Shown here: piece by piece, positions 849 through 38,457 of the stretch
How positions within the stretch are numbered: position 1 is the first letter of the stretch
Layout of the letters: every line of letters begins with the position of its first letter
Assembly (NCBI RefSeq): GCF_012927455.1
Contig: NZ_JABBPE010000008.1
Location: 248,001-312,000, forward strand
DNA from: Polaromonas sp.
GTDB lineage: Bacteria; Pseudomonadota; Gammaproteobacteria; Burkholderiales; Burkholderiaceae_C
Direction of reading: 5' to 3'
DNA length: 64,000 nt
Translations under genes and position numbers: made by a program
The notes under the pieces: model-generated
Seen by the model: the letters and a program-made list of their open reading frames with translations, nothing else
Database searches by the model: none
What the model was told of the DNA's origin: nothing

Positions 849-2188
849 TTATTCACTCTCATGGCGGGCACGTCCTGCAGGCGCATCTCGGCGGCGCGCG
901 CATGGGCCTGCAGGCCTTCGCCATAAGCCAGTTCGGCGGCAATTTTGCCCAGCACCTGCGCCCCGGCTTCGCTGACTTCGATCAGGCTGGAGCGTTTTTG
1001 AAAATCGTAGACCCCCAGCGGACTGGAAAAGCGCGCCGTGCCGCTGGTGGGCAGCACATGGTTGGGGCCGGCGCAATAGTCTCCCAGGCTTTCGCTGGTG
1101 TAGGCACCCAGGAAAATCGCGCCAGCGTGGCGCAGCAACGGTTCCCAGCGATGCGGGTCGCGGCTGGAGACTTCCAGATGCTCGGGCGCAATCCGGTTGC
1201 TGATCTCGCAGGCTTCTTCCATGCTGCGCGTCAGAATCAGCGCACCGCGGCCATTGAGCGATTTGGCGATGATGTCGGCGCGCGGCATCTGCGGCAGCAG
1301 GCGGTTCATCGCGGCCAGCACTGCGTCGATATAGGCCGCATCGGGGCACAGCAAAATGCTTTGGGCCAGCTCGTCGTGCTCAGCCTGGCTGAACAAGTCC
1401 ATCGCCACCCAGTCGGCGGGTGTGCTGCCATCGGCCAGCACCAAAATCTCGGAGGGTCCGGCAATCATGTCTATACCCACCGTGCCAAAGACGCGGCGCT
1501 TGGCAGCGGCCACATAGGCGTTACCAGGGCCGGTGATCTTGTCGACGGCGGGAATGGTGGCGGTGCCATAGGCCAGCGCCGCCACAGCCTGCGCACCGCC
1601 TACCGTGAAGGCGCGCGTGACGCCGGCCACGTAAGCGGCCGCCAGCACCAGGGCATTCTTTTCCCCCTTGGGGGTAGGCACGACCATGATGATTTCAGCC
1701 ACACCGGCCACATGCGCGGGGATGGCGTTCATCAGCACCGAGGACGGGTAGGCCGCCTTGCCGCCGGGCACGTAAATGCCGACGCGGTCAAGTGGCGTGA
1801 CCTTCTGGCCCAGCAGCGTGCCGTCTTCATCGCGGTAGCTCCAGCTTTCGCCATTGGCCTTTTTTTGCGCCTCGTGGTACGTGCGCACGCGCCGCGCGGC
1901 CGCTTGCAAGGCGTCCCGCTGGGCAGCCGGAATCGCCTCGAAGGCGGCTTTCAATTCGGCCTGGGTGAGTTCGAGCTCGCTCATGGAGGCGACGCTCAGG
2001 CCGTCAAAACGCGCGGTGTATTCAAGCACCGCCGCATCACCGCGCTGCTGCACGTCGGTCAGGATGTCGGCGACGCGCTGCTCGATCGCCGCGTCGGTGG
2101 CGGCGGACCAATGCAGGCGCGCCTTGAATTGGGCATCAAAAGTGCTGTCAACGCAGGATAGACGGGCGGGAGCAGCTATTAATTTCAT
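845..2188 (-). CDS. hisD: Histidinol dehydrogenase
   Basis: Zn- and NAD-dependent enzyme that oxidises histidinol to histidine in two steps, the last reactions of histidine biosynthesis. 447 aa, normal for the family. Diagnostic segments are [18 protein letters not shown] (about residues 138-155), [29 protein letters not shown], the SQAEHDE motif with the catalytic Glu/His region, and [10 protein letters not shown] near the C-terminus. It overlaps hisC by 4 bp and follows hisG by 26 bp. The start codon and first ~19 codons lie inside a copy of the R1 mini-repeat (2133-2191). No in-frame alternative start is better: conserved sequence starts near residue 20. Confidence 0.97.
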
Positions 2189-23424: not shown

Positions 23425-24846
23425 CTACGCGCCCGCATCGGCCCAGAGGGCGCGCATGGCACGGCTGAAGTTTCCGGCCAGTTGCGGCCACAGCGCAGCA
23501 TCCTGCTGCGGCCCGCCAAAGCGACCAACGGCAACCACGCGCCGGCCTGCCACAAACACCTCGCCAAAAGCTGCAACCGGGCCAGAAAAAACCAGTGCGT
23601 CCAGCAGCTGCTCGGGCGGAATGCCGAGCAGCGCCGGCGCCTGAAGATCCAGCGTCACGAAATCGGCGCGGTTGCCGGGGGCGATGCCACCTAGCGCCTG
23701 ACCGCTGGCCGCCTGACCGCCCGCCAGCGCCGCCTCGAACAGCGCGGCGGCGCTGCTCTCGTGGTCACCAACGCGCGCCGCAATATTGCGCTGGCGCAAG
23801 CTCAGGCGTTGCGAATACTCCAGCCAGCGCAATTCCTCGGGCCAGCTGCGGGTAATCTGGCTGTCGGAGCCGACCGACCACTGCCCCCCGGCGACGGCAT
23901 AGGCCGGAAAATCAAACACACCGTCGCCCAGATTGGCTTCGGTGGCAGGACACAGGACGATGGACGCGCCGCTCTTTTGCAGCGCCGCCAGCTCGGCGGG
24001 CGTGCTCTGCGTGGCATGCACCAGGCTCCAGCGCGCGTCGACTTCGACATGGTCCAGCAGCCACTCGATCGGGCGCTGGCCGGTGTGGGCGATGCAGTCG
24101 GCGACCTCCTGCGTCTGCTCGGCGATGTGGATGTGCAGCGGCAGGCCGGCGTGTTTGGCCGCAGCGGCCAGCTCGCTAAGTGCCGCCGGGCAGGCCGCGC
24201 GCAGCGAATGCACCGCCACGCCGGCGTTGAAGCGGCTGTCGCCGAGGCGCCTGATTTCCTCGGCCACGCGCAGCACGCTGTCGGGTGTCGAAGAAAACCG
24301 ACGCTGCTCGACGCGCAGACCGCTGGCGCTGAACCCTGAGCGCATGTACAGCGTTGGCAACAACGTCAGGCCGATCCCCGTGCGCTGCGCCGCGCGCACC
24401 AGCGCCAGCGCCATTTCGGCCGGATCGGCATACGGCGCGCCGTCGATCGCGTTGTGCAAATAGTGAAACTCGCAGACCTGGGTGTAGCCGCCGGCCAGCA
24501 GTTCGGCATACAGCAGGCTGGCAATCGCCTCGAGCTGCGCCGGCGTGATCCGGTTGGCCGCGCTGTACATGCGCTCGCGCCAGCTCCAGAAATCATCGGA
24601 TTCCCCGCCGCCGCGCCGCTCGGTCAGGCCGGCGATGGCGCGCTGAAAGGCGTGGCTGTGGGCGTTGACCAGCCCCGGCAAGACTGGGCCTTGAAGTCGG
24701 GTCGCGCCGGCCTGCTCGGCCGCTGTGGCGCCGGGCTGCACATTGAGCCAGCTGCCGTCGCCCGCGACGTGCAGCAGCACATCGGTCGCCCAGCAGCCCT
24801 GCACCCAGGCCTGCGCGGCAAAAAACCTCTTTGCTTCACTTTTCAT
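23425..24846 (-). CDS. hutF: Formimidoylglutamate deiminase
   Basis: Converts N-formimino-glutamate to N-formyl-glutamate plus ammonia, the penultimate step of the five-step hut pathway found in Pseudomonas. 473 aa. Amidohydrolase-fold metal site: PGLVNAHSHAFQRA near residue 60, HIHIAEQTQEV (third His and nearby Glu), VHATQ and VGSDSQITRSWPEELRWLEY with the catalytic Asp. It overlaps hutG by 11 bp and ends the hutC-D-I-G-F run. Presence of both hutF and hutG shows that formylglutamate is an intermediate, not direct formamide release by HutG-type formiminoglutamase. Confidence 0.94.
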   Translation of the reverse strand: MKSEAKRFFAAQAWVQGCWATDVLLHVAGDGSWLNVQPGATAAEQAGATRLQGPVLPGLVNAHSHAFQRAIAGLTERRGGGESDDFWSWRERMYSAANRITPAQLEAIASLLYAELLAGGYTQVCEFHYLHNAIDGAPYADPAEMALALVRAAQRTGIGLTLLPTLYMRSGFSASGLRVEQRRFSSTPDSVLRVAEEIRRLGDSRFNAGVAVHSLRAACPAALSELAAAAKHAGLPLHIHIAEQTQEVADCIAHTGQRPIEWLLDHVEVDARWSLVHATQSTPAELAALQKSGASIVLCPATEANLGDGVFDFPAYAVAGGQWSVGSDSQITRSWPEELRWLEYSQRLSLRQRNIAARVGDHESSAAALFEAALAGGQAASGQALGGIAPGNRADFVTLDLQAPALLGIPPEQLLDALVFSGPVAAFGEVFVAGRRVVAVGRFGGPQQDAALWPQLAGNFSRAMRALWADAGA

Positions 24847-25657
24847 AGCAGCTTGCGCAGGCAGACAGGGCGTCAGCGACCATATTTCTTAACAAAGGCT
24901 GGATTTGCGCGGCCAAAGCCGGGTTGTAGGCAAACGGCGGCGTTTCCTGCATGTAGACGCGCTGGCACATCTCCAGCTGCACCGCGTGCACGGCGCGGGC
25001 CGGCTGGCCATAGTGGCGCGTGATGTAGCCGCCCTTGAAGCGGCCATTGACGGCGGTCGTGCGCTGGGGATGCGCGGCGCAGGCCCGCACCAGCGCCGCG
25101 GTGATCGCCGGGTCGGCGCTGGCGCCGCCTGCCGTGCCGATGTTCAGATCGGGCAGCCGGCCTTCAAAAAGCCAGGGAATCTGCGAGCGGATGCTGTGCG
25201 CGTCCCACAACAGCGCAAACCCATGCAGCGCCTTGAGACGCTCCAGCTCGGCGAGCAGTGCGGCGTGGTAGGGCTGCCAGTACGCCTCGCGCCGCCGGGC
25301 GCGCTCCTCGGGCGCCGGCTCGCAGCCGGGGCGATACAGCGGCGCGCCGCTGAAGAACCGCGTCGGGCACAGCTCGGTGTTGGACGCGCCTGGGTACATC
25401 GGCGCGTCGTCGGGCGGGCGGTTCAGGTCGATCACATAGCGCGAATACGCAGGCGTCAACACGCTGGCGCCCAGTTCCGGCAGGAAGTTGTAGAGGCTGT
25501 GCAAATGCCAGTCGGTGTCTTCGACCTGCAGCGCTTCGGGCGTGTAATTTTGTTGAAGTTCCAGCGGAATCGCGCTGCCGACATGCGGCATGCTTACCAG
25601 CAGCGGGACGCTGCCGCGCTGCAATGAAAACATCTGCTCATCCATGATCTGGCTCAT
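24836..25657 (-). CDS. hutG: N-formylglutamate deformylase
   Basis: Hydrolyses N-formylglutamate to glutamate and formate, final step of the pathway. 273 aa from the ATG at 25657, which forms an ATGA overlap with the hutI stop; a second in-frame ATG lies at 25645. The frame stays open far upstream, but that part is antiframe reading of hutI. Signatures: [15 protein letters not shown] (metal His), [49 protein letters not shown] and the C-terminal [11 protein letters not shown] with the active-site Glu. Confidence 0.93.
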
Positions 25658-26868
25658 CTGATTTGCCCCCTGAAGACGGTTTGAAGCCGCGGATTGGCGC
25701 CGAACGCGTAGCTCAGCTCGGCCGGTTGCCGCACGCTCCACAGCACGAAATCGGCGCGCAGCCCGGCTGCCAGCACGCCCCGGTCGCGCAGGCCGAGTGC
25801 TGCCGCCGCGTTGCGCGTGACGCCGGCCAGCGCCTCTTCGGGCGTAAGCCTGAACAGCGTGCAAGCCATGTTGAGCATCAGCAGCAGCGAGGTGCAGGGC
25901 GATGTGCCCGGATTGCAGTCGGTGGAAATGGCGATCGGCACGCGCTGCTCGCGCAGCAAGGCCACCGGCGGCAGCCGCGTGTCGCGCAAAAAGTAAAACG
26001 CGCCGGGCAGCAGCACCGCGACCGTGCCGGCCGCCGCCATGGCCTGGGCACCCTCGACTGACAGCCACTCCAGGTGGTCGCAGCTCAGCGCGCCGTAACG
26101 CGCGGCCAGCTGCGCGCCGCCGCTGTCGCTGAGTTGCTCGGCGTGCAGTTTCACCGGCAGCCCGAGCGCCTGCGCGGCGGCAAAGACGCGTTCGGTCTGC
26201 CCGGGGCTGAAGGCGATGCGCTCGCAAAACGCATCGACCGCATCGACCAGCCCTTCGGCGTGCAGCACCGGCAGCATCTGCAGCAAGGCATCGACATAGG
26301 CATCGGTGCGCCCGGCAAACTCGGGCGGCACGGCATGGGCGCCGAGAAATGTGTTGCGAATATCGACCGCATGGCTTTGCCCGAGCGCGCGTGCCACCGC
26401 CAGCGTTTTTCGTTCGTGTTCAAGCGCTAGCCCGTAACCCGATTTGATCTCCAGCGTGGTGACGCCTTCGGCCAGCAACGGCAGCAGCCGGCGCGTGCTT
26501 TGCGCCTGCAACGCGGCAGCGCTGGCCGCGCGGGTCGCCGCCACCGTCGAGGCGATGCCGCCGCCGGCGCGCGCAATGTCTTCGTAGCTCGCACCGTTCA
26601 GCCGCAGCTCGAATTCATGCGCCCGGTCGCCGCCGTAGACCAGGTGCGTATGGCAATCGATCAGGCCGGGCGTGACCAGCGCGCCGCCAGCGTCGTGCCG
26701 TTTGATGCAGCGCGCCAGCAGGTCCGCAGGCAAATCCGCGCTTGCGCCGACCCACGCCAGCGCCTCGCCGTCGACCACCAGCGCCGCGTCGTCAATCAGG
26801 CCATAAGGCCGGGCTGCGGCAGGCTGCATCGTGGCGGCGCGGCAGTTGCTCCAGAGTTGCAGGCTCAT
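25654..26868 (-). CDS. hutI: Imidazolonepropionase
   Basis: Opens the ring of 4-imidazolone-5-propionate to give formiminoglutamate. 404 aa amidohydrolase. Seen: [25 protein letters not shown] (HxH metal pair and substrate Arg), [20 protein letters not shown] and [10 protein letters not shown] with the metal Asp. It is coupled to hutD (4-bp overlap) and hutG (4-bp overlap), so these genes form one translational chain. Confidence 0.96.
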
Positions 26869-27425
26869 GCGGGAATCTCCATCCAGAGTGCCTGCGCTGC
26901 GTTCACCTGCAGCGTGGCGTTAACCGTTACCGTGCGCCAGGCCAGGCTGTGCGCTGGCAAATCCAGTTTTTCATCATTAAATAGCACGCTAGCCCCCGTA
27001 CTAATTGCGTAGACAGCTATTGTTTTAGGAGCATCAACAGCTATTGGCAGGCTGCTGCTGACGCGACCCATGCGCGCTCGGCCCCGGCCTTGGCGCAGCA
27101 TCAGGTTGAAATCCTGCGTCTTGCCCTCCAGCAGGCGGCAGTGCGTAGCGGCAGAGCCGTCAAAGCAAAAAGGCGCATCGCCGGCGGTCAGGCGATGCTG
27201 CTTTCCGTTCACATCGAGTTCAACGCCGGCGCCGCCAAGCACCGCAAACCAGCGTTGAACATCCTCAAAGCGCGAGAACGGCCCGCTGCTGTTGATGTCA
27301 GCCACCGACAGGCGCCAGTGCCAGTCGGCTGACGTCGGCCACGCGACCAGTTCACGCGTCACGCCACCGCCGTTGCGCCAGGTTGTTGCAAGCACGTCGG
27401 CCAGCCGGACCACCTGCCAGCTCAT
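26865..27425 (-). CDS. hutD: HutD family protein
   Basis: 186-aa cupin-like HutD. In Pseudomonas this protein is reported to limit or fine-tune hut expression, possibly by binding formylglutamate; its enzymatic role is unsettled. Seen: [45 protein letters not shown] and [19 protein letters not shown], all typical. Within the C-terminal third, codons for about [15 protein letters not shown] to FNDEK are contributed by an R1 mini-repeat (26970-27030), so this part is expected to differ from relatives. Coupled to hutC and hutI by 4-bp overlaps. Confidence 0.88.
26970..27030 (-). repeat. R1 mini-repeat copy 6 (inside hutD coding sequence)
   Basis: Minus strand: AATAGCTGTCTACGC, then GGGGGCTAG at exactly the family's 26-nt spacing after ATAGCT, followed by a T-rich end. 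A second AATAGCTG half-site lies at about 27036-27043. The frame of hutD is kept through the repeat. Confidence 0.6.
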
Positions 27426-28132
27426 GGTTGAAACTTTCCGGCAAAGCTGTAGCGCGACCCCGGGTAGACCAGCCGCGCCACGCTGGCAATATGGGCACCG
27501 CTCACGGTGCGGCGCATCATGGCCAGGCAGGCATCGCCGGCTTTGATGTCAAGGTGCTCGGCCTGCAGCGCCGTGGGTCGGCATGCCTCGATCGAATAGC
27601 TGGCTTCGGTCAACGGTGCTTCGACCAGCAAATGACGCGTCGGCGTGGTCTGTGTGAAGTCAGTCGCCAGGTAGTTGGGCGCGGCCGCCGGGTTGACATA
27701 GCGGTCCTCGTACTGAATCGGCACGCCGTTTTCCAGGTGAATGAGGATGGTGTGAAAGACGCGGGCGCCGGCGCGCAGGCCCAGCGTGCGCGCCAGGTCA
27801 GCACTGGCTTTTTCGGATTCCGCCAGCAGCACACGCGCGCTGTGCACATGGCCGCGCGCCAGCACTTCTTCATGAATGTCGCGAATCGCCAGCGTTGAGG
27901 AAATGCGGTGCAGCTCGGCTACGAAGGTGCCCGAGCCCTGGACCCGCGTCACCAACCCCTCGCCCATCAGCTCGCGCAGCGCGCGGTTCACGGTCATGCG
28001 GCTAATGCTGAATTGCTGCATCAATACCGACTCGCTGGGCACCGGGTCGCCCGGCTTCCAGCTGCCGGCGCTGATGTGTTTTTTGATGAAGGCCTTGACT
28101 TGGCCATAGGCGGGCAGTGCAGAGGAAGCCAT
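27422..28132 (-). CDS. hutC: GntR/HutC-family histidine utilisation repressor
   Basis: Transcriptional repressor released by urocanate. 236 aa. N-terminal winged helix (residues ~8-75) reads YGQVKAFIKKHI, PSESVLMQQFSISRMTVNRALRELMGEGLVTRVQGSGTFV. The C-terminal UTRA ligand domain contains LLAESEKASADLA, HLENGVPIQYEDRYVNPAAAPNYL and the HutC-type end SVARLVYPGSRYSFAGKF. It is the first gene of the minus operon and diverges from hutU across a 171-bp gap that carries a matching palindrome at 28233-28248. Confidence 0.94.
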   Translation of the reverse strand: MASSALPAYGQVKAFIKKHISAGSWKPGDPVPSESVLMQQFSISRMTVNRALRELMGEGLVTRVQGSGTFVAELHRISSTLAIRDIHEEVLARGHVHSARVLLAESEKASADLARTLGLRAGARVFHTILIHLENGVPIQYEDRYVNPAAAPNYLATDFTQTTPTRHLLVEAPLTEASYSIEACRPTALQAEHLDIKAGDACLAMMRRTVSGAHIASVARLVYPGSRYSFAGKFQP

Positions 28133-28224: not shown

Positions 28225-28253
28225 TTGACACAAGTTGTATAGACAACTACGAT
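28225..28253 (+). promoter_or_regulatory. hutUp: hutU promoter with HutC operator between -35 and -10
   Basis: TTGACA (28225-28230), 17-bp spacer, TACGAT (28248-28253). The spacer holds AGTTGTATAGACAACT (28233-28248), a 6-bp perfect inverted repeat around ATAG. HutC operators in other proteobacteria have the core TTGTATATACAA-like sequence, so repressor binding here would occlude RNA polymerase. A weaker relative, CGCTTGTATAAAAGCG, lies at 33646. Confidence 0.7.
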
Positions 28254-28303: not shown

Positions 28304-30094
28304 ATGTCCGATCTTTCCCAGTCTCCCTTTCTCGACAGCCGGGCCCGCCCGGTGCGCTCACCGCGCGGCAGCACGCTGACGTGCGCCAACTGGCAGATCG
28401 AAGCGGCCTACCGCATGATCCAGAACAACCTGGACCCGGAGGTCGCCGAAAATCCCGACGAGCTCGTGGTCTACGGCGGCATCGGCAAGGCGGCGCGCAA
28501 CTGGCCGGCTTTTGACGCCATCCTCGATTCGCTGCGCCAGCTGAAGCCGGACGAAACGCTGCTGGTGCAGTCGGGCAAGCCGGTCGGCGTGTTTCGCACC
28601 CACACGGGCGCGCCGCGCGTGCTGATTGCCAATTCCAACCTGGTTCCCAAATGGGCCACCTGGGAGCATTTCAACCAGCTCGACCGCGCCGGGCTGATGA
28701 TGTATGGCCAGATGACGGCGGGCAGCTGGATTTACATCGGCACCCAGGGCATCGTGCAGGGCACCTACGAAACTTTCGTGGAAGCAGGTCGCCAGCATTA
28801 TTCTGACGGCCCCTCGACCACCAAGGGCGGTGGCCGGTCCCCCGAGGGGACGCTGCCCGGCCTGGGGCGGCCCGGCGCGTCGGGTCACGGCGACCTGACT
28901 GGCCGCTGGGTCTTGACCGCCGGCCTGGGCGGCATGGGCGGCGCGCAGCCGCTGGCAGCCACTTTTGCCGGCGCCTGTTCGCTCAACATCGAATGCCAGC
29001 AGGCCAGTATCGATTTCCGCCTGCGAACGCGCTATGTGGATCAGCAGGCGGCCAGCCTGGATGAAGCGCTAGCTCTGATCGAAAAGTACACGGCGCGCAA
29101 GGAGGCGGTCTCGATTGCGCTGTGCGGCAACGCGGCCGAGATCGTTCCCGAACTGCTCAGGCGCGCCCAGGCCGGCGGCATTCGGCCCGACATCGTGACC
29201 GACCAGACCTCGGCGCACGACCTCATCAACGGCTACCTGCCGCTGGGCTGGAGCGTCGCGCAATGGCGCGCCGCGCAAAAAGACCCGGCCCAGCATGCCG
29301 CGCTGACGCAGGCCGCTGGCGAATCGTGCGCGGTCCACGTCCGGGCCATGCTCGGGTTTCACGCCCTGGGCATTCCCACGGTGGACTACGGCAACAATCT
29401 GCGCCAGGTCGCCAAAGACTTCGGCGTGGCCAATGCGTTCGACTACCCCGGCTTTGTTCCGGCCTACATCCGGCCGCTGTTTTGCCGCGGCATCGGGCCG
29501 TTTCGCTGGGTCGCACTGTCGGGCGATCCGGAGGACATCCGCAAGACCGACGCGAAGATGAAAGCGCTGTTTCCCGACAACCAGCCGCTGCACCGCTGGC
29601 TCGACATGGCGGCCGAGCGCATCAGCTTTCAGGGCCTGCCGGCACGCATCTGCTGGATCGGCCTGGGCGAGCGGCATCGGGCCGGCTTGGCGTTCAACGA
29701 GATGGTGAAAAGCGGAGAGCTGAAGGCGCCCATCGTGATCGGCCGCGACCACCTCGACAGTGGCTCGGTGGCCTCGCCGAACCGCGAGACCGAAGCCATG
29801 AAGGACGGCAGCGATGCGGTCAGCGACTGGCCGCTGCTCAACGCGCTGCTCAACACCGCCAGCGGCGCGACCTGGGTCAGCCTGCACCACGGCGGCGGCG
29901 TCGGCATGGGCTACTCGCAGCACGCCGGCGTGGTGATCGTCTGCGACGGCACGCCGGATGCCGCCGAGCGCATCGAGCGCGTGCTGTTCAACGACCCGGC
30001 GACCGGCGTGATGCGCCATGCCGATGCCGGTTATGAGATCGCCCGGCAAAGCGCCAGGGAGCATGGCCTGAAGCTGCCGATGCAAGGAGCTTGA
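28304..30094 (+). CDS. hutU: Urocanate hydratase with a 31-residue insertion
   Basis: Adds water to urocanate using tightly bound NAD+, giving imidazolonepropionate. 596 aa from MSDLSQSPF at 28304 (GGAGCACCTCC upstream), against about 555 usual. Core: [77 protein letters not shown] (NAD), [22 protein letters not shown] with the active Cys, and [16 protein letters not shown]. Between AGRQHY and LTGRWVL residues 167-197 are a Gly/Pro/Ser-rich insert where relatives have about three residues; the DNA (28802-28894) resembles repeat R2. The frame is intact and all catalytic blocks remain. OCD-like gene starts 3 bp downstream. Confidence 0.95.
28802..28894 (+). repeat. R2-like repeat inserted in hutU
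   Basis: 93 nt (31 codons) that interrupt conserved urocanase sequence. It holds CCCCCGAGGGG and CTGGGGCGGCCCGGCGC at nearly the R2 spacing; the left half of R2 is diverged. The insert keeps frame. Confidence 0.55.
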
Positions 30095-30097
30095 CCC

Positions 30098-31111
30098 ATG
30101 TCCGAAAGCAGCGCCGAAATCTATCTGACTTACCTGAACCGTCCTGACGTTCAGGCGCTGGCCCTGACTGATGCCGAGATCATTGCCGCTGTCGAGCAAG
30201 CGCTGGATGCGCAGGGCCGGCAGCAAACCACGATCGAGCCGCGAGTGCACCTGGTGCCGGAAAAGGATTACCCAGGCCACTTCAACGTGCTGCGCGGCTA
30301 CATCCGCCCGCTCGGGCTGGCGGGCGTGAAAGTGGTGGGCGACTTCTATCGCAACTATGAAAGCGGCCTGCCGTCCGAACTGGCCGTTCTCAACCTGTTC
30401 AATCCAAAGAACGGCGCGCCAATCGCCATCATCGACGCCTCCGACCTGACCGACATGCGCACTGGCGCCATCACCGCAATCGGCGCCAAACACCTGGCGC
30501 GAAAAAACTCGAAGGTGCTGGGCCATATCGGCGCCCGCGGCACGTCGTACTGGAACGTCCGGCTGCTTGATTCGATCTTTGACTTCGACGAGATCCGCGT
30601 GCACTCGCGTCGGCCAGAAAGCCGCCAGTCCTTTGCCGCAAGGCTTGAAGAAGACCTGGGCAAAAAAATAGCCGTGACCGAGGACTGGGAATCGTGCGTT
30701 CGCGGCGCCGACATCGTGGTCGAGGCCTCGCGGCTGGAAAAGCCCGAGCCGCTGCTGAAAACCGAATGGATCAAAAAAGGCGCCTGCGTGATTCCCTACG
30801 GCACCATGAGCGCGGTGGAGCTGACGCTGACCGACATCATGGATAAGCTGGTGATGGACGACTGGGGCCAGGCTGGAGCCGGGCCGTTCGGCGCGCTGCG
30901 CGCCCATGTGGACGCGGGCAAGCTGTCGGCGCAAACCTTGCATGCCGAACTCGGCCAGATCGTTGCGGGCTTTAAACCCGGCCGACAGAGCGATCAGGAA
31001 ACCAATTTGTTCTGGCACCGCGGCCTGTCGCTGTCAGACATTGCGCTGGGCGCCTTCATGCTTGAAAAAGCCGCGCGCCTGCAGCTCGGGCAACGCTTGC
31101 GTTTTCGCTGA
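30098..31111 (+). CDS. Ornithine cyclodeaminase / mu-crystallin family protein
   Basis: 337 aa, NAD(P)-dependent family that deaminates or reduces amino/imino acids. Substrate-side blocks are present: EPRVHLVP, GHFNVLRGYIRPLGLAGVKVVGDFYRNYESGLPSE and the catalytic-Asp region DASDLTDMRTGAITAIGAKHLARK. The nucleotide loop is unusual: LGHIGARGTSYWN in place of the GxGxQA pattern. DIVVEASR and a C-terminal QETNLFWHRGLSLSDIALG follow. It starts 3 bp after hutU, ahead of a PhnD-like gene and hutH, so it is co-expressed with histidine catabolism. A true ornithine role is doubtful; the substrate may be a histidine-derived amino acid. Confidence 0.8.
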   Translation: MSESSAEIYLTYLNRPDVQALALTDAEIIAAVEQALDAQGRQQTTIEPRVHLVPEKDYPGHFNVLRGYIRPLGLAGVKVVGDFYRNYESGLPSELAVLNLFNPKNGAPIAIIDASDLTDMRTGAITAIGAKHLARKNSKVLGHIGARGTSYWNVRLLDSIFDFDEIRVHSRRPESRQSFAARLEEDLGKKIAVTEDWESCVRGADIVVEASRLEKPEPLLKTEWIKKGACVIPYGTMSAVELTLTDIMDKLVMDDWGQAGAGPFGALRAHVDAGKLSAQTLHAELGQIVAGFKPGRQSDQETNLFWHRGLSLSDIALGAFMLEKAARLQLGQRLRFR

Positions 31112-31122
31112 AAAACGAGTTT

Positions 31123-31944
31123 ATGACCCGCCCGCCCGTTGCCAACGCCCGGATGTATTCAGCCACGGCATCGGTGCGCGCCGACTGGAACGCCTTGCTC
31201 GGCTGGGTGCTGGCGCAAGCCGGGTTGCGCTGGGACATCATTGACCATGATGCGCCCGCACCGCTGGCAACGCTGTGGACGCGCAATGACCTGGGCCTGG
31301 CCATGATGTGCGGCCTGCCGTATGCGCAGCGCATCGGCACGCCCGGGCAGCCCACGCTCGTCGCCGCGCCGATTCCAACGCCTGCCCGCTATGGCGGCCA
31401 GGCGGTCTACTTCACCGACATCGTGGTGCGCAGCGACGCGCCTTACCGCACGTTGCAAGATACCTTTGGCGGCACGGTCGGCTACACGCTGGCCGATTCG
31501 ATGTCGGGCGGCGTGGCCTTGCGCCGCCACCTGGAAGGCTACCGAACGCCCCAGCAGCCACGGCTGTACCGCGCGGCGGTCGGCGACCTGGTCAACGCGC
31601 GCGGCGTGATCGAGGCCCTGGCCGCTGGCCGCATCGACGTCGGGCCGCTGGACAGCTACTACCACGACCTGCTGTGGCGGCATGAACCGGGCTTTGCCGC
31701 CCAGGTGCGCATCGTTGCCCACACCCCGGCGCTGCCGATTCCGCCGCTGATAGCCACCGCCGCCTTGAGCGCCGGCGAGCTGGCGCGCTTGCGCCAGGCG
31801 CTGCTGGCGAGCGCTGCTTCAGAGGAACTGGCGCCGGTCATGGAGCGCTTGCTGCTGGCAGGCTTTGCCTTCCCCGATCTCGCCGATTACCGTCCTTTAG
31901 CAGCCATGGCCGCGGCCGCCGCAACGCCTTTTGAGGAACTTTGA
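31123..31944 (+). CDS. PhnD/transferrin-like substrate-binding fold protein without signal peptide
   Basis: 273 aa matching the phosphonate/ABC-type periplasmic binding fold: MMCGLPYAQR, TPARYGGQAVYFTDIVVRSDAPYRTLQDTFGGTVGYTLADSMSGG, ALAAGRIDVGPLDSYYHDLL, TPALPIPPLIATAALS. The N-terminus (MTRPPVANARMYSATASVRADW) is not a signal peptide, so the product is predicted cytosolic unless the true start is elsewhere; no better upstream start is open. It sits 11 bp after the OCD-like gene and abuts the next ORF. It could be a metabolite-binding regulator or an enzyme on this fold. Function unknown. Confidence 0.75.
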   Translation: MTRPPVANARMYSATASVRADWNALLGWVLAQAGLRWDIIDHDAPAPLATLWTRNDLGLAMMCGLPYAQRIGTPGQPTLVAAPIPTPARYGGQAVYFTDIVVRSDAPYRTLQDTFGGTVGYTLADSMSGGVALRRHLEGYRTPQQPRLYRAAVGDLVNARGVIEALAAGRIDVGPLDSYYHDLLWRHEPGFAAQVRIVAHTPALPIPPLIATAALSAGELARLRQALLASAASEELAPVMERLLLAGFAFPDLADYRPLAAMAAAAATPFEEL

Positions 31945-32049: not shown

Positions 32050-33620
32050 ATCCAGACCTCACGCCGACCCGGACCCACCGCATGAACATCCAGCCCGGCT
32101 TTTTGACGCTGGCGCAGTTGCGCCAGCTTCATGCCGGCAGCCAGGCGCTGTCTGTCGATCCGTCGGCAGCGGCCGGCATTCGCGCCAGCGCCCAGCTGGT
32201 CCGGCAAGCCGCACAAGGCGGCGCTGCCGTCTATGGCGTGAACACCGGTTTTGGCAAGCTGGCCAACCAGCGCATCGCGCAAGCCGACCTGGACACTCTG
32301 CAGCTCAACCTGCTGCGTTCGCACGCCGTCGGCGTGGGCGAGCCAATGCCGGAGCGCGTGGTGCGGCTGGTCCTGCTGCTCAAAGCAGCAAGTCTGGCGC
32401 GTGGCTTTTCGGGTGTGCGCGCATGCGTTATCGACGGGCTGCTGGCGCTGTACAACCAAGGCTTGACACCGGTGATCCCCTGCCAGGGATCGGTTGGCGC
32501 GTCTGGCGATCTGGCGCCGCTGGCCCATCTGTGCCTGCCCCTGATAGGCGAAGGCGAGGTGTTTTACGGCGGCGAACGCATGGCGGCTGACGCCGCTTTG
32601 CAGCGTGCGTCGCTGGCGCCAATACGGCTGTCGGCCAAGGAAGGGCTGGCACTGATCAACGGCACGCAAGTCTCCACTGCCTTGGCGCTGGACGCCTTGC
32701 TCGCCACCGAGAGCCTGTTTGAGGCCGCGGTCATTTCCGGCGCGCTGACGCTAGACGCCGCACGCGGCAGCGACGGTCCGTTCGATCCGCGCATTCACGC
32801 CGTGCGTGGCCAGCCCGGGCAGATCGAATGTGCTGCCGCCTACCGCGCGCTGCTGGCGGGCAGCGAGATCCGCCGTTCACACCTGCAAGACGATGACCGG
32901 GTGCAGGACCCGTACTGCCTGCGCTGCCAGCCGCAGGTCATGGGCGCCTGCCTGGATCAGATGCGCTATGCCGCGCAGGTATTGGTGCGTGAGGCCAATG
33001 CCGTGACCGACAACCCGCTGGTGTTTGCAGACGAGGGCGCGCTGCTGTCAGGTGGAAATTTTCATGCCGAGCCGGTAGCGCTGGTGGCCGATGCGCTGGC
33101 CGTGGTCATCGCGGAAATCGGCGCCATCTCCGAGCGCCGCATTGCCCTGCTGGTCGATGCCGCGGTCTCGCGCCTGCCGGCGTTCCTGACGCCCGCGCCC
33201 GGCCTCAATTCAGGCTTCATGATCGTGCATGTGACCGCCGCCGCGCTGGCCTCTGAAAACAAGTCGCTGGCGCATCCGGCCAGCGTCGACAGCCTGCCCA
33301 CTTCGGCCAACCAGGAGGACCACGTCAGCATGGCGACCTTCGCGGCGCGCCGGCTGCAGCCCATGCTGCGCAATACCGGCTACATCGTGGCCATCGAACT
33401 TCTGGCGGCGGCCCAGGGTATCGAGTTTCTGCGGCCGCTGAAAAGCGCTGGCGTGCTGGAGGGCGTGCTGCAATTGGTCCGCGAGGCGTCGCCGGCCATG
33501 ATGCAGGACCGCAGCCTGGCGCCCGATATCGAGCGCGTACATCAATTGGTGGCGCAAGGGCGCATAGGCCTGCCGGGCGAGGCGCAGATCACCGAGTTGA
33601 CGGTCTTGCGACTGGCGTGA
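32046..33620 (+). CDS. hutH: Histidine ammonia-lyase
   Basis: Eliminates ammonia from histidine to give urocanate, first step of the hut pathway. The MIO electrophile forms from Ala-Ser-Gly in QGSVGASGDLAPLAH, fully present. Other active-site pieces: VYGVNTGFGKLAN (Tyr), LLRSHAVGVG (His), RVQDPYCLRCQPQ (Tyr, Arg), LVFADEGALLSGGNFHAEP and SANQEDHVSM (Glu). 524 aa from 32046, chosen for its ATGA overlap with the preceding ORF; the in-frame ATG at 32082 gives 512 aa, closer to the usual ~510, and is a good alternative. Neither start has a strong ribosome site. It ends the hutU-to-hutH run; 141 bp follow before the importer genes. Confidence 0.96.
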   Translation: MNPDLTPTRTHRMNIQPGFLTLAQLRQLHAGSQALSVDPSAAAGIRASAQLVRQAAQGGAAVYGVNTGFGKLANQRIAQADLDTLQLNLLRSHAVGVGEPMPERVVRLVLLLKAASLARGFSGVRACVIDGLLALYNQGLTPVIPCQGSVGASGDLAPLAHLCLPLIGEGEVFYGGERMAADAALQRASLAPIRLSAKEGLALINGTQVSTALALDALLATESLFEAAVISGALTLDAARGSDGPFDPRIHAVRGQPGQIECAAAYRALLAGSEIRRSHLQDDDRVQDPYCLRCQPQVMGACLDQMRYAAQVLVREANAVTDNPLVFADEGALLSGGNFHAEPVALVADALAVVIAEIGAISERRIALLVDAAVSRLPAFLTPAPGLNSGFMIVHVTAAALASENKSLAHPASVDSLPTSANQEDHVSMATFAARRLQPMLRNTGYIVAIELLAAAQGIEFLRPLKSAGVLEGVLQLVREASPAMMQDRSLAPDIERVHQLVAQGRIGLPGEAQITELTVLRLA

Positions 33621-33761: not shown

Positions 33762-34643
33762 ATGAAAATCTGCAGGCTTTTGGCGTGTTCCGTATTGGCG
33801 CTGGCCACCATGCTGCCGCTTGTTTCTGAAGCGCAGCAGGTCGTTCGCGTGGGCTCCAAAAACTTCACCGAGCAGTTTGTGCTAGCCGAAATTTACGCTC
33901 AGTCGCTGGAAGCGGCCGGCATCAAGACCGAGAAAAAGCTCAACCTGGGCGGCACGCTGATCGCGCACAAGGCGCTGGAAGAAAAGCAGATCGATTTTTA
34001 CCCCGAGTACACCGGCACCATGCTTCTTGCCGTGCTGAAGCAAGAACCCATGACAGACGCCAAGGCAGTCTATGACAAGGTCAAGGAGGCTTACGCCAAG
34101 ATGGGGCTGGTGGTGCTGAGCCAGTCCAACCTCAACAACGGCTATGTGATGGTGATTCGCCCGGAGACGGCGCAAAAGTACAAGCTGGAAACCCTGTCGG
34201 ACCTGACCAAGGTCGCCAAGGACCTGAAGATAGGCGCCGGCCCCGAATTTCGCGATCGCAAGGACGGTCTGCCCGGTCTGAAGGCCAAATACGACATGGT
34301 GTTTGGCGAGGACTTGCAGATGGCCATTGGCCTGCGTTACCAGGCCCTGAAAAACGACCAGATTCAGGTGGTCAATGGCTATTCGACCGACGGCATGATC
34401 AGCACGCTCAAGTTGAAGCGGCTGCGCGACGACAAGAGCTTGTGGCCTCCGTATTTTGTCGTGCCTGTAATTCGACGCGAAGCGCTGGAAGCCAACCCAA
34501 AAATTGGCGAGGTGCTGAACCGCGTCAGCGCCCTGCTCGACGAAACCACGATGGCCCAGATGAACTACCTGGTCGATGGCGAGAAGCAGGAACCCAAAGA
34601 CGTGGCGCGCGACTTCCTCAAATCCAAAGGCATCGTCAAGTAA
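33762..34643 (+). CDS. Betaine-type (OpuC/OsmF/EgtU-like) ABC substrate-binding protein
   Basis: 293 aa periplasmic receptor. Signal peptide MKICRLLACSVLALATMLP then VSEAQQ. The OpuAC/QAT fold is clear: VVRVGSKNFTEQFVLAEIYAQ, LNLGGTLIAHKALEEKQIDFYPEYTGT, GAGPEFRDRKDG, VVNGYSTDGMI, DDKSLWPPYFVVPVIR. The family binds quaternary amines (glycine betaine, choline, carnitine) and, in the EgtU branch, ergothioneine, through an aromatic box. The start has GGAG 9 bp upstream. It is followed by a MIO-less HAL-like gene, two permeases and an ATPase. Linkage to hut suggests an imidazole betaine ligand rather than an osmolyte; that is inference. Confidence 0.88.
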   Translation: MKICRLLACSVLALATMLPLVSEAQQVVRVGSKNFTEQFVLAEIYAQSLEAAGIKTEKKLNLGGTLIAHKALEEKQIDFYPEYTGTMLLAVLKQEPMTDAKAVYDKVKEAYAKMGLVVLSQSNLNNGYVMVIRPETAQKYKLETLSDLTKVAKDLKIGAGPEFRDRKDGLPGLKAKYDMVFGEDLQMAIGLRYQALKNDQIQVVNGYSTDGMISTLKLKRLRDDKSLWPPYFVVPVIRREALEANPKIGEVLNRVSALLDETTMAQMNYLVDGEKQEPKDVARDFLKSKGIVK

Positions 34644-34687: not shown

Positions 34688-36220
34688 ATGACGATTGAAG
34701 TGGGTACAGCGTGGGTCGGCATTGACGAGTTGGTGCGGGTAGCGCGCGTTGGCGAGTCCGTCGTGCTGGCGCATTCCGCGCGCGCGCAGGTTTGCGCGGC
34801 GCGCCAGGTCGTGATGCGCCTTGCCAGCTCGGGCCAGCCGATTTACGGCCTCAATTCCGCGCTGGGCGCCAACACCGGCGCGCTGCTGCCCGACAGTGAT
34901 CTGCAAGACTACCAGCGCCGCGCGGTGCGCGCGCGGGCAGTGGCCGTCGGGCCGGCCTATGACCAGGCCTCGGTTCGCGCCATGCAGTTTGCCCGCATTG
35001 CCGGCCTGGCACGCGGCCGCTCCGGCGTGTCGCCGCAGGTGCTGGATGCCTGCATCGCCTTGCTCAATCATCGGGTGCATCCGGTGGTGCCGCGCTTCGG
35101 CTCGATCGGCGTGGCCGACCTGCCGCAGCTCTCGCACCTGGCCTTGCCGCTGTTCGGCGAGGGAGAGGCCGAGTTCGGCGGCGAAGTGCTCAGTGGCTGT
35201 GCGGCGCTTGAACGTGCCGGGCTTAAACCGGTGACGTTGGGGGTCAAGGATGGCCTTGCGCTGATCAGTTCCAACGCGGCCACCACAGCGCGTGCCGCGC
35301 TGGTGCTGCACGACGCGAACGCTGCGCTCGATGCCTGGCTGGCCGCCATCGCATTGGGTTACGAAGGCTTTCGGGCCAATTTGTCACCGATTCATCCCGC
35401 CGCGGTAGCAGCCAGACCCGCCACCGGCCAGGTCGAGGTAGCGCAGCGGCTACGTGCGCTGCTGCAGGGCAGCGCGCTTTTCCTGCCGGGCGCTGCGCGC
35501 CGCGTGCAGGACCCGGTGTCGATGCGTGTCGTGGCACAAGTGCATGGCGCTGCGGAGGGCATGATCAGCGCTGCCAGAGCCCAGGTCGAGCTCGAACTCA
35601 ACAGCGCCGCCGACAGTCCGCTGGTGCTGGCACACGAGGGGAAAGGCCAAGCCGACGAAGACGGCGGCGTCATGCTGTCCAACGGCAATTTTCACGTGCC
35701 GGCGCTGGCCCTGGCTCTGGACGCCTGTGCGATTGCGCTGGCGCAGGCGTCCAGCCTGTCGGTGGCGCGCTGCCAGCGCTTCATGTCACCGGATCTGACT
35801 GGCCTGCCGCTGCAACTGACCCGGCACGGCCCAACCCACTCGGGCTTTGCCACGGTGCAAAAAACCCTGACCGCGCTGTGGGCCGAAATACGGCTGCGCG
35901 CCAATCCCGGCTCGCTCGACTATCTGCCGGTTTCCGAAGGGCTGGAAGACCACGCCTGCATGGCGCTCGGCGTTGCCGAAAAACTCGGCGAACAGGTGGA
36001 GCGCATCCGTTATCTGATTGCCATCGAACTGCTGGTCTCGGCGCAGGCGGTGGACCTGCGTGAACTTGACGAGGCCGGCATGGGGGAAGGCGCGCGCCTG
36101 GCCTACCGGCAGCTGCGCCAAATCGTTCCTGTGCTGGACGAAGACCGCCCGCTCGGTCCGGACATTGACCGGGTGGAGCGCGCCGTCGCGGCAGGTCTGT
36201 TCGGCCTGCAAGCCGCGTGA
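34688..36220 (+). CDS. HAL/PAL-superfamily lyase-like protein lacking the MIO triad
   Basis: 510 aa, full length for the family and collinear with HutH in this window. The MIO-forming triad is absent: HutH GSVGASGDLAPLAH aligns with GSIGVADLPQLSH, so Ala-Ser-Gly becomes Val142-Ala143 with one codon lost. Other changes against HutH: TGFG to SALG, RSHAVG to RARAVA, QDPY to QDPV. Kept: YG of the Tyr loop, the Arg after QDP, GNFH and LEDH with the Glu. The frame is intact and fold-specific blocks (NPGSLDYLPVSEGLEDH) are conserved, so it is not decaying. A MIO-independent trimethylamine-type lyase or a ligand-binding pseudoenzyme are the options. It starts at ATG 34688; the longer open frame upstream is antiframe to the binding-protein gene. 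Permease gene starts 7 bp downstream. Confidence 0.85.
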   Translation: MTIEVGTAWVGIDELVRVARVGESVVLAHSARAQVCAARQVVMRLASSGQPIYGLNSALGANTGALLPDSDLQDYQRRAVRARAVAVGPAYDQASVRAMQFARIAGLARGRSGVSPQVLDACIALLNHRVHPVVPRFGSIGVADLPQLSHLALPLFGEGEAEFGGEVLSGCAALERAGLKPVTLGVKDGLALISSNAATTARAALVLHDANAALDAWLAAIALGYEGFRANLSPIHPAAVAARPATGQVEVAQRLRALLQGSALFLPGAARRVQDPVSMRVVAQVHGAAEGMISAARAQVELELNSAADSPLVLAHEGKGQADEDGGVMLSNGNFHVPALALALDACAIALAQASSLSVARCQRFMSPDLTGLPLQLTRHGPTHSGFATVQKTLTALWAEIRLRANPGSLDYLPVSEGLEDHACMALGVAEKLGEQVERIRYLIAIELLVSAQAVDLRELDEAGMGEGARLAYRQLRQIVPVLDEDRPLGPDIDRVERAVAAGLFGLQAA

Positions 36221-36227: not shown

Positions 36228-36851
36228 ATGAAATGGTTTTTGCGCAACTGGCCGGATGTCGCCTATGCCTTGTGGGAGCACATTGCCATCTCGCTGACCG
36301 CGCTGACGATTGCCTTTGCGCTGTCGCTGGTGGTCGGGGTTGTTGCCGCGCGGCGCGAGCGGCTGTACGGCGCGGTCATGACCGTTTCAGGCTTTCTGTA
36401 CACCATCCCCACGCTTGCGTTTCTCGCCTTCCTGATTCCCGTCGTCGGGCTGGGGCGCACCAACGCGATCATCACCATGGTGGCGTTTTCACTGATGATC
36501 CTGATCCGCAGCGTGGCGACCGGCATCCGCGAAGTTCCGGCCGACGTGATTGACGCCGCGCGCGGCATGGGAATGAGCGCGGCACAGATCATGCGGCGCA
36601 TCGAGCTGCCGCTGGCGCTGCCGCTGATCGTCGCCGGCCTGCGAGTGGCCGCCGTCACCGTCATCAGCGTGACGGTGGTCGCCGCCTACGTCAACGCGGG
36701 CGGGCTGGGAACGCTGATCTTCAACGGCATTGCCAGCGACCATCCGGCGAAAATCTGGACCGGCGCCCTGACCGTCTGCATCCTCTCGGTCAGCGTCGAT
36801 CTGCTGCTGGCGCTGCTGGAGCGCCAGCTCAAAAGCCGGCGCACCGCCTGA
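36228..36851 (+). CDS. Betaine-type ABC importer permease 1
   Basis: 207 aa with about five membrane helices, starting MKWFLRNWPDV. The OpuCB/YehY-type permease core is present: LYTIPTLAFLAFLIPVVGLGRTNAII and the EAA-like loop VIDAARGMGMSAAQIMRRIELPLALPLIVAGLR that contacts the ATPase. AYVNAGGLGTLIFNGI follows. It starts 7 bp after the MIO-less lyase-like gene, 14 bp before permease 2. It presumably forms a heterodimer with permease 2 in the inner membrane. Confidence 0.9.
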   Translation: MKWFLRNWPDVAYALWEHIAISLTALTIAFALSLVVGVVAARRERLYGAVMTVSGFLYTIPTLAFLAFLIPVVGLGRTNAIITMVAFSLMILIRSVATGIREVPADVIDAARGMGMSAAQIMRRIELPLALPLIVAGLRVAAVTVISVTVVAAYVNAGGLGTLIFNGIASDHPAKIWTGALTVCILSVSVDLLLALLERQLKSRRTA

Positions 36852-36865
36852 GCTCGGGAACAACC

Positions 36866-37510
36866 ATGCTTGCCGACGCCTGGAACTATCTGCTTGCGCA
36901 CCCCGCGCAGTTTTGGCGTGCCCTCGGCGTTCACATGGCGCTGTCGGCCTCGGCGCTGCTGCTGGCTGCGCTCGTCAGCATTCCGGCAGGTATTGCCGTG
37001 GCCAGGCGCAATCGCCTGTCGCTGGCGGCAGTGAACGCGGCCAATGTTGCGCGCACCCTGCCATCGCTGGCCGTGCTCGCACTGGTCATGCCGCTGCTCG
37101 GAACCGGCTTTGCGCCGGCGCTGTTCGCCTTGACACTGATCGCCCTGCCGCCCATCGTCACACACACCATCGTTGCGATGCGTGGCGTCGATGCCGATGT
37201 GGTCGATGCCGCAGTCGGCATGGGCATGACGCGATCCATCCTTTTTTGGCAGGTCGAGTTGCCGATGGCCTTGCCCGTCATTTTTGCCGGCTTGCGCACA
37301 GCCGCAGTGCAGGTCATTTCCGGCGCGGTGCTGGCCGCGTTTATAGGGGGCGGTGGCCTGGGCGACTTCATCACTGCAGGCATCGCCATGATGGCCACGC
37401 CCCAGCTGCTGGTGGGCGCCATTCCCGTCACGCTGCTGGCGCTGGGCACTGATTTTCTCTTTGGCGCCTTGCAGCGCCGCATGACGCCCCGGGGGCTAAA
37501 TTCAACATGA
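36866..37510 (+). CDS. Betaine-type ABC importer permease 2
   Basis: 214 aa, OpuCD/YehW type, about five membrane helices (SASALLLAALVSIPAGIAVA, LPSLAVLALVMPLLGTGFAPALFALTLIALPPIV). EAA-like loop VVDAAVGMGMTRSILFWQVELPMALPVIFAGLR, then AAFIGGGGLGDFITAGI. It ends in a 4-bp overlap with the ATPase gene, so permease and ATPase are coupled. Confidence 0.9.
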   Translation: MLADAWNYLLAHPAQFWRALGVHMALSASALLLAALVSIPAGIAVARRNRLSLAAVNAANVARTLPSLAVLALVMPLLGTGFAPALFALTLIALPPIVTHTIVAMRGVDADVVDAAVGMGMTRSILFWQVELPMALPVIFAGLRTAAVQVISGAVLAAFIGGGGLGDFITAGIAMMATPQLLVGAIPVTLLALGTDFLFGALQRRMTPRGLNST

Positions 37511-38457
37511 TCACACTCGACCGCCTCAGTAAAACCTTCGCCAACAGCGCCCAACCGGCGGTCGATGGACTGTCGCTCTCGGTTGCTACAGGCGAAATCT
37601 GCGTGCTCATCGGCCCTTCGGGCTGCGGCAAGACCACCACCATGCGCTTGATCAACCGCATGGTCGAGCCCGATTCTGGGCGCATCGAAGTGGGTGGACG
37701 CGACGTGATGCGAATTGACCCGGTCGAACTGCGCCGCTCCATCGGCTATGTGATTCAGCAGGTCGGGCTGTTTCCCCACATGACGATTGGCGAGAACATC
37801 GCCACGGTGCCGAAAATGCTCGGCTGGGACGCGCCGCGCATTGCTAGGCGCGTCGATGAACTGCTGGCGCTGGTTCACATGGAGCCGGCGCAGTTCCGTG
37901 AGCGTTTTCCACGTGAGCTCTCGGGCGGCCAGAAGCAGCGCGTCGGCGTGGCGCGGGCGCTGGCGGCGGACCCGCCTGTCATGCTGATGGACGAGCCGTT
38001 CGGCGCCATCGACCCGATCACGCGCACGCTGCTGCAGGACGAGTTTTTGCGCATCCTGCGCGAACTCGGCAAAACCATTGTTTTTGTGACGCACGACATC
38101 GACGAAGCGATCCGCATGGGTTCGCGCATCGCCATCCTGCTCGCCGGCAGGCTGATTCAATACGATACGCCTGAACGCATTTTGGCCCGTCCAGCCGACG
38201 CGTTTGTGCAAGCCTTTGTCGGGGAAGACCGCTCGCTGAAGCGGCTTTCCCTGCTGACGGCAGGCGCCTATGTCGAGGCAGGAAATCCCACCGCTGCGGC
38301 GCCACGTCTGCCGCCCGGCACGCCTTTGCGCGATGCCTTGGCGGTGATGCTGGACGCCGGCGTTGATGAGGCCGGCATTGTGGACAGCCGAGGCGCTGTA
38401 CTGGGGCGAATCACCCTGGCAGGGATTCGACAGGCGGCGCAGGTGGCAAAGCCATGA
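37507..38457 (+). CDS. Betaine-type ABC importer ATPase with a C-terminal CBS-like segment
   Basis: 316 aa, OpuCA/ProV-like. Walker A GPSGCGKTTTMRLINRM near residue 36, Q-loop QQVGLFPHMT, signature ELSGGQKQRVGVARAL near 140, Walker B VMLMDEPFGAIDP near 160, switch VTHDIDEA. After residue 250 a single short CBS-like unit (PLRDALAVMLDAGVDEAGIVDSRGAVLGRITLAGI) takes the place of the tandem CBS pair used by osmosensing OpuCA, so ionic-strength gating is less likely. Last gene of the plus run. Confidence 0.9.
   Translation: MITLDRLSKTFANSAQPAVDGLSLSVATGEICVLIGPSGCGKTTTMRLINRMVEPDSGRIEVGGRDVMRIDPVELRRSIGYVIQQVGLFPHMTIGENIATVPKMLGWDAPRIARRVDELLALVHMEPAQFRERFPRELSGGQKQRVGVARALAADPPVMLMDEPFGAIDPITRTLLQDEFLRILRELGKTIVFVTHDIDEAIRMGSRIAILLAGRLIQYDTPERILARPADAFVQAFVGEDRSLKRLSLLTAGAYVEAGNPTAAAPRLPPGTPLRDALAVMLDAGVDEAGIVDSRGAVLGRITLAGIRQAAQVAKP

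Follow-up and report, generated by a model that had tools for sequence, protein, structure and literature searches.

The window analysed here is a stretch of 64,000 nucleotides from Polaromonas sp. (contig NZ_JABBPE010000008.1). Its hut locus contains, at 34688-36220 on the plus strand, a gene for a Lyase_aromatic protein without the residues that form the 4-methylidene-imidazole-5-one (MIO) group of histidine ammonia-lyase (HAL, encoded by hutH). From translation, profile, PDB and fold matches, the product is predicted to be an amino-acid-betaine trimethylamine lyase. It is proposed that this protein is a MIO-independent lyase of HAL fold that releases trimethylamine from an aromatic amino-acid betaine, here most likely hercynine (histidine betaine), and as a whole this proposal is evenly poised. 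Trimethylamine elimination as the reaction class is predicted with good confidence, and hercynine as the main substrate more tentatively, with a confidence slightly below even. The best reading of the net reaction is the conversion of hercynine to urocanate and trimethylamine under HutC control, and the context points to hercynine over ergothioneine. Ordinary ammonia-lyase activity and gene decay are unlikely.

Without MIO, ammonia leaves poorly, whereas N(CH3)3 is a good enough leaving group for no MIO to be needed. The betaine would be taken up by a substrate-binding protein (gene at 33762) and an ATP-binding cassette (ABC) importer (36228-38457), as the cage residues of the binding protein suggest. 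By homology, the lyase would then remove the beta-proton and expel N(CH3)3, with Tyr53, Lys392, and Glu420 in the roles of the ergothionase residues. The product, presumably urocanate, would enter the adjacent HutU-HutI-HutF-HutG route to glutamate, the genes of which are present. Urocanate would also relieve HutC repression of the operon, judging from the operator in relatives and the effector described in the literature.

Sequence and fold of the lyase

The open reading frame runs from the ATG at 34688 to the stop at 36218-36220 and translates into 510 amino acids with zero internal stops. The product scores 456 bits against Pfam PF00221 (Lyase_aromatic) and 376 bits against the NCBIfam hutH equivalog TIGR01225, far below the cut-off of 539. 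The window's own HutH (32082-33620, plus strand), an ordinary MIO enzyme with an intact Ala-Ser-Gly triad, reaches 680 bits against the same model. The initial annotation, which described a full-length HutH homologue with an intact frame in the same locus as HutH, agrees with these results.

In the alignment, the MIO loop of the lyase is G138-S139-I140-G141-V142-A143-D144-L145 (GSIGVADL, 35099-35122, plus strand), and that of the window's HutH is GSVGASGDL. The Ala-Ser-Gly triad is absent from the translation and the alignment, and Val142-Ala143 takes its place with one residue fewer, as the earlier reading of a replaced triad with one codon deleted had it. The three further motif changes named there were all found: NTGFG to NSALG, RSHAVG to RARAVA, and QDPY to QDPV. 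The lyase thus resembles HutH in its fold, its gene cluster, and the retained Tyr53, Arg280 (after QDP), GNFH, and Glu420 (the Glu of LEDH), the last three of which had also been pointed out; it differs in the missing triad, in an identity of only 35-36%, and in altered amino-side residues. The equivalents of Asn195 and Tyr280 (HAL numbering) are altered both in the window lyase and in the ergothionase of T. denticola (TdERG).

Another mark, Lys392 in the motif VQKT, was absent from the initial annotation. The equivalent residue of HutH is Val, and the Lys is common to ergothionase and the other MIO-less lyases aligned that have one residue deleted. Across 27 MIO-less rows (window included) and HutH, Tyr53, Gln274, Asp275, Arg280, and Glu420 are invariant and Lys392 is near-invariant.

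The best PDB sequence match of the lyase (phmmer) was TdERG, entry 6s7j, with 256.8 bits and an E-value of 4e-75; the best HAL reached 248.4 bits. An AlphaFold2 model of the lyase, built with 28 aligned sequences, had a pLDDT of 89.2 and a pTM of 0.91. In Foldseek, this model placed 6s7j at rank 1 with a TM-score of 0.92.

Relation to ergothionase and other MIO-less lyases

In PMC13405746, ergothionase is described as an enzyme without MIO that yields trimethylamine and thiourocanate, and as also reported from Burkholderia sp. HME13. The window lyase resembles the T. denticola enzyme (6s7j/6s7q) in its HAL fold, the lack of MIO, a loop shorter by one residue, a gained Lys, and the kept Tyr and Glu; the loop, Lys, Tyr, and Glu pattern is also common to four lyases linked to thiourocanate hydratase. 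Tyr53, Lys392, Glu420, and Arg280 align with identical, putatively catalytic residues of TdERG. In contrast, the identity is 32%, the ring-side residue is Arg in the window lyase and His in TdERG, the two enzymes belong to different clades, and the window's genome encodes no thiourocanate hydratase above the profile cut-off.

A maximum-likelihood tree of 39 rows, unrooted or with a midpoint root, had no phenylalanine or tyrosine ammonia-lyase outgroup and no HME13 ergothionase among its rows. The window type forms a separate clade (100/100, 9 rows), as do the HAL rows (100/99, 6 rows), and TdERG groups with the lyases of two compared loci, L074 and L079 (97/89). A further split (99/97) separates TdERG, L074, L079, and the thiourocanate-linked rows from the HAL, window-type, AAD, GDL, and Streptomyces rows. 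In this tree of 39 rows, clustering of the window lyase with a characterised ergothionase was not found, and the lyase lies outside both the TdERG clade and the clade linked to thiourocanate hydratase. Because of the missing outgroup and the midpoint root, the tree cannot tell one loss of MIO from several. If the root lay on the HAL branch, a single loss would be possible. With no root and no HME13 ergothionase in the tree, a common origin of the window lyase and ergothionase is conceivable.

The initial annotation named ergothionase as a precedent and proposed an alignment and a tree. The MIO-less residue pattern is indeed shared with TdERG, but placement in its clade was not obtained, given the 99/97 split. 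Ergothionase-like chemistry is supported by the 6s7j match, by Lys, Glu, and Tyr, and by the importer. A plain ergothionase was not adopted and is considered only among the rival readings; the lyase belongs to another clade, the genome has no thiourocanate hydratase, and the binding protein lacks the EgtU marks.

Thiourocanate hydratase above the cut-off was found at five loci (5 of 398 genomes), and four of them have a MIO-less lyase within 20 kb. These four lyases (L064-L067, from the Alphaproteobacteria side) have the loop GSIGCADI or GSMGCADI and are 26-30% identical to the other MIO-less rows. Like the window lyase, they lack MIO, keep Lys and Glu, and have a urocanase-family neighbour. 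However, they are only 27-28% identical to it, and their partner is a thiourocanate hydratase over the cut-off, whereas that of the window is a true urocanase.

Among genomes and plasmids, the MIO-less groups with the loop deletion and the Lys are the window type (GSIGVADL), the AAD type (L026, L027, L029, L069 from Rhizobium, and others), the GDL type (L024, L025, L035, L070, and others), and one Streptomyces row. A broader proposal, held with considerable doubt, places the window lyase as a branch within a so far uncharacterised family of amino-acid-betaine trimethylamine lyases that work without MIO. This family would comprise the groups just listed, often accompanied by an ornithine cyclodeaminase/mu-crystallin (OCD) family protein and a PhnD-like protein. 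The hut-linked team might convert sulfur-free or sulfur-bearing histidine betaines to urocanate under HutC control, without thiourocanate hydratase and with a new catalytic role for the OCD protein.

Three further kinds of locus were noticed. Other HutH paralogues without Ala-Ser-Gly (L045, 13480-15120, minus strand; L055, 9306-10862, plus strand) have a shorter loop, GSVGYLTHM, with Tyr for Lys; they adjoin hut genes and group with HAL in the tree. Plasmid 1 of Polaromonas sp. JS666 (L074, 7054-8886) encodes a TdERG-like lyase, 39% identical to the T. denticola enzyme, and its neighbours are a TTT receptor, OCD, PhnD, and a YeiH-type transporter; this is a candidate ergothionase locus. In Paraburkholderia sp. 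PGU19 (L079, 9992-14710), a TdERG-like MIO-less lyase and an OCD gene share a cluster with a true urocanase, which has 967 bits and falls short of the cut-off for thiourocanate hydratase.

The importer operon

The lyase gene is the second of an operon with the order substrate-binding protein, lyase, permease, permease, and ATPase, all on the plus strand. The binding protein (33762-34643) is of the OpuAC/AfProX type according to its alignment and PF04069 (229 bits). Profile scans identified a ProW/ChoW-like permease (36228-36851, scanned from 36225) and a second ABC permease (36866-37510). The ATPase (37507-38457) has its best match in the betaine/proline/choline family proV model, with 318.4 bits, just under the cut-off of 326.6.

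Residues of the binding protein were numbered by motif alignment, with no structure, against section 8 of PMC9732360. The cage residues Y83, Y128, Y207, Y231, and N126 are kept, as are K33, T86, and R166 of the carboxylate site. With this aromatic cage and Lys/Thr/Arg site, both shared with EgtU and AfProX, the protein fits subcluster F-III for quaternary ammonium compounds. The ergothioneine signature of EgtU given there was not found in the motif alignment; Phe35 and Tyr83, which are AfProX-type residues, stand at the places of the invariant Gly244 and Phe293 of EgtU. Leu124 stands at the place of AfProX Phe107 and EgtU Tyr337. By these residues, the protein resembles receptors of carboxylated quaternary amines but lacks the published marks of ergothioneine binding.

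Conservation and distribution

The lyase is present in 10 of 87 Polaromonas genomes, including its own, and the other nine orthologues are 80-87% identical to it. All ten have the loop GSIGVADL, and more distant beta-proteobacterial orthologues have GSISVADL, GSVGSADL, or GSIGVSDM at unchanged loop length. Because orthologues have the loop too, it cannot be put down to faulty sequencing or to a lesion confined to this genome. Comparison of the window gene with eight orthologues by the Nei-Gojobori method gave dN/dS values of 0.10-0.28. A pseudogene or assembly error was ruled out on the basis of this range and the intact gene in nine congeners besides the window. Clustering with decayed pseudogenes, the outcome that the initial annotation had said would speak against its idea, was not found among these nine intact congeners or in the tree.

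Near relatives carrying the lyase are Polaromonas jejuensis, Polaromonas sp. P2-4, and a Polaromonas metagenome-assembled genome; outside the genus, Rhodoferax and other beta-proteobacteria also have orthologues. Any match to the lyase family was found in 36 of the 87 Polaromonas genomes. All ten carriers also have a HutH-like gene. The hypergeometric values among carriers (6e-5 for a HutH-like match and 2.5e-13 for the OCD gene) ignore kinship and gene linkage and are not usable as probabilities. Proximity to HutH-like or other hut genes was seen in nine of the ten carriers, for the lyase itself in seven and for the OCD partner in two more.

Wider genome searches scored the top three to five candidates per genome, so that divergent members may be missed. 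Matches were found in 6 of 299 genomes at the family level (E 1e-85), among them that of the window, a second Polaromonas, and G345 (locus L024), which has another subfamily only. At the order level (E 1e-80), the window's genome was the only match among 349, and at the phylum level 10 of 398 genomes matched under a strict E limit. Two separate counts of plasmid records gave 96 with a relative of the lyase and 84 with a relative of the OCD protein.

In Polaromonas sp. P2-4 (L017, 1-7018), hutI, hutD, hutC, hutU, hutH, and the OCD gene are split over overlapping frames, and the lyase is intact. The split frames are probably sequencing frameshifts in that assembly.

The hut locus and the OCD-family partner

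A complete set of hut genes surrounds the lyase. Five of them lie on the minus strand: hutF for formimidoylglutamate deiminase (23428-24846; TIGR02022, 524 bits, cut-off 413), hutG for N-formylglutamate deformylase (24836-25657), hutI for imidazolonepropionase (25654-26868), hutD (26865-27425), and the repressor gene hutC (27422-28132; TIGR02018, 286 bits, cut-off 220). The assignments of hutG, hutI, and hutD come from identities of 55%, 64%, and 42% (over 109 amino acids), respectively, to the annotated genes of locus L073. On the plus strand follow hutU (28304-30094, scanned from 28301), the OCD gene (30098-31111; PF02423), the PhnD-like gene (31123-31944; PF12974), and hutH. HutU is a true urocanase (TIGR01228, 911 bits) and scores 651 bits against the thiourocanate hydratase model, below its cut-off of 930. 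A profile search of the genome, which is 99.65% complete, for thiourocanate hydratase found only this HutU; with the same model, the enzyme of L064, used as a positive control, gave 1061 bits.

The host genome encodes EgtD (362.5 bits, cut-off 290.9) and EgtB (554.6 bits, cut-off 360), and hercynine is therefore expected as an intermediate of this organism.

The OCD-family protein is a frequent companion of MIO-less lyases, and the PhnD-like protein, of the substrate-binding protein fold, is a companion of the OCD gene. At E 1e-90, the OCD gene was found in exactly the ten Polaromonas lyase carriers and in none of the 77 others. It is found again next to lyases of the AAD, GDL, Streptomyces, and TdERG-like kinds, and it is 69-74% identical in modules of which the lyases are only 31-50% identical to that of the window; one of these modules (L040) additionally has a 67% identical lyase. 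The OCD and PhnD-like pair accompanies MIO-less lyases in the window and in L042, L045, L069, L074, L075, L076, and L082. No OCD gene is in view for the lyases of L043, L046, L056, L058, and the short contig L041, and no OCD match was found within 20 kb of the four thiourocanate-linked lyases. Two other loci count against a strict link between the OCD protein and the lyase. Over 21 kb each, L073 has the order hutC, hutH (MIO intact), hutU, OCD, and PhnD but lacks a MIO-less lyase, and L078 combines OCD and PhnD-like genes without a lyase match.

In the GDL-type modules of L070, L075, and L082, genes for two LLM-class flavin oxidoreductases separate the importer from the OCD gene. On the Rhizobium plasmids L069, L077, L080, and L081, an AAD-type module is preceded by LysR, 'putative sulfate exporter', CoA-transferase, SDR, MaoC, and hutC-like genes, those of L080 being partly unannotated. 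These AAD modules look like a pathway in which an aryl-acrylate, derived from another betaine, would have its side chain degraded by beta-oxidation.

HutC operators

PMC12977541 gives TGTA-N2-TACA as the HutC operator and urocanate as the effector. A match to this consensus, TTGTATAGACAA, lies between hutC and hutU (28235-28246). Sites with at most one mismatch from TTGTATATACAA number 20 in 940,511 bases (50 sequences) against a crude shuffle expectation of 0.15, which is a low estimate because the shuffle was mononucleotide and the sites were anchored on TATA only. Eleven of the 20 sites lie within 300 bp upstream of the binding protein or lyase gene of the MIO-less family. Such an operator was found 104-180 bp upstream of the binding protein gene in 8 of 12 window-type loci with the binding protein-lyase operon (L017, L019, L049, L050, L051, L052, L053, and L054), which are closely related and cannot count as independent cases. 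The operator is also present in L019, with no hut gene besides the module among the matches in 21 kb. The window-type lyases without such a binding protein (L020 and L040) have no operator before the lyase. AAD-type lyases are preceded by two sites in L045 and one in L076; the other 18 AAD-, GDL-, and Streptomyces-type loci have none within 300 bp, and there the first gene of the operon is often further away. The operator type and the proposed urocanate effector match those of the HutC regulon of Proteobacteria. The parts of PMC5343134 and PMC12977541 that were consulted describe no pairing of a MIO-less lyase with a betaine importer.

Alternative explanations

Several observations weigh against hercynine cleavage under HutC control. 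Arg82 of the lyase stands at the place of HAL His83, a ring-side residue, and TdERG, L074, L079, and the thiourocanate-linked lyases have His there; the Arg could mean an anionic ring substituent rather than a plain imidazole. If hercynine were converted directly to urocanate, the OCD gene would have no job, though it occurs in the same 10 of 87 genomes. No operator with up to two mismatches precedes the binding protein gene in the window, L015, L016, or L018, and the best site in the window has four mismatches (P 0.41). The module of P. jejuensis (G004, L016) is located away from hut. Transporter genes differ in the 67% and 73% identical relatives, being of the oligopeptide type in L040 and of the polar-amino-acid type in L020. 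EgtD is found in 67 of the 87 Polaromonas genomes, including all ten carriers, which are not singled out (hypergeometric P 0.06); its presence was thus rejected as weak support for the carriers. Compared with the lyase model, P. putida HAL and ergothionase reach an equal TM-score of 0.92. Because these scores are equal, the fold alone cannot separate ergothionase from HAL; the residue pattern does.

A hercynine lyase would not need the OCD protein, and for this reason a sulfur-bearing histidine betaine (ergothioneine, S-methyl-ergothioneine, or ergothioneine sulfonate) is kept as the main rival substrate of the same lyase chemistry. In this possible but rather unlikely alternative, the OCD protein would perform a second step, such as removal of the C2 sulfur substituent, giving urocanate for HutU. 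The shared distribution of the two genes, the OCD position between hutU and hutH, Arg82, and the EgtB and EgtD of the host agree with it. So do the 'putative sulfate exporter' or YeiH transporter in L069, L074, L077, L080, and L081 (PF03601 tested in L069 and L074) and the paired flavin oxidoreductases of the three GDL-type modules (Pfam tested in L075). However, the genome lacks thiourocanate hydratase, and it has no match to PF03601, the type of transporter that adjoins some related modules, which is mildly against sulfur release as sulfite. The binding protein lacks the Gly and Phe of EgtU. In genome G959, a lyase linked to thiourocanate hydratase coexists with an OCD-linked one, which suggests that their substrates differ. 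The thiourocanate-linked lyases without a nearby OCD gene, and the OCD-PhnD pair of L073, where the hut operon shows no HutH other than an ordinary one, also oppose this alternative.

Another aromatic amino-acid betaine, such as hypaphorine or tyrosine betaine, would yield an acrylate that is not a hut intermediate. The varying transporter genes of the 67% and 73% relatives and the ring-side change from His to Arg would suit such a substrate, and the CoA-transferase, SDR, and MaoC genes of the AAD-type Rhizobium modules (Pfam for L069) are as expected for an aryl-acrylate. The HutC-type operators and the hut linkage of the window-type lyase make this unlikely, and an NCBIfam scan of 20 proteins from the window, out of about 48 predicted genes, found none of these three families. 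That the protein is a catalytically dead HutH paralogue, kept as a HutH subunit or regulator, is suggested by the lost triad and by its position two genes from hutH. This is very unlikely in view of the conserved Tyr53, Gln274, Asp275, Arg280, Glu420, and Lys392, the operon of its own with an importer, and the 36% identity to HutH; in addition, no hutH match was found in about 21 kb at L016 and L019. Finally, the fold and the kept part of the HAL pocket would allow an ordinary ammonia-lyase acting on histidine or another primary amine without MIO. This is extremely improbable given the poor leaving group, the normal HutH next door, and a score far below the hutH equivalog cut-off.

Significance

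The annotated relatives inspected are mostly named 'histidine ammonia-lyase', with one 'aromatic amino acid ammonia-lyase', and the former name would be wrong for the window branch. If the hercynine proposal is true, bacteria would have a dedicated degradation route for hercynine and a new entry point into histidine breakdown. Ergothionase would belong to a larger group of betaine lyases, trimethylamine would have a further biological source, and the HutC regulon would extend beyond histidine itself. Among the titles and abstract beginnings listed from the open-access PMC literature, no description of the lyase module or of a hercynine lyase was found, and a search of that literature gave no paper that combines hercynine, urocan*, and trimethylamine.

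Additional observations

The 20-kb cluster of L040 (genome G168) contains two MIO-less lyases, 41% and 69% identical to that of the window, together with the oligopeptide-type ABC transporter genes and an X-Pro dipeptidyl-peptidase-family protein. In L020 (1868-17117), the window-type lyase adjoins genes for OCD, a Rieske oxygenase, an AstE/AspA-family protein, a 2OG-Fe(II) oxygenase, and the polar-amino-acid ABC proteins, and cas genes (Cas3-like, Cas5d, Csd1, and Cas7) follow directly after this module. The hut degradation cluster shares the window with a gene of histidine biosynthesis, hisD (848-2188, minus strand). At L083 (3-1328, minus strand), the gene adjoining egtD encodes a product that, judged from its translation, looks like the large subunit of ethanolamine ammonia-lyase.

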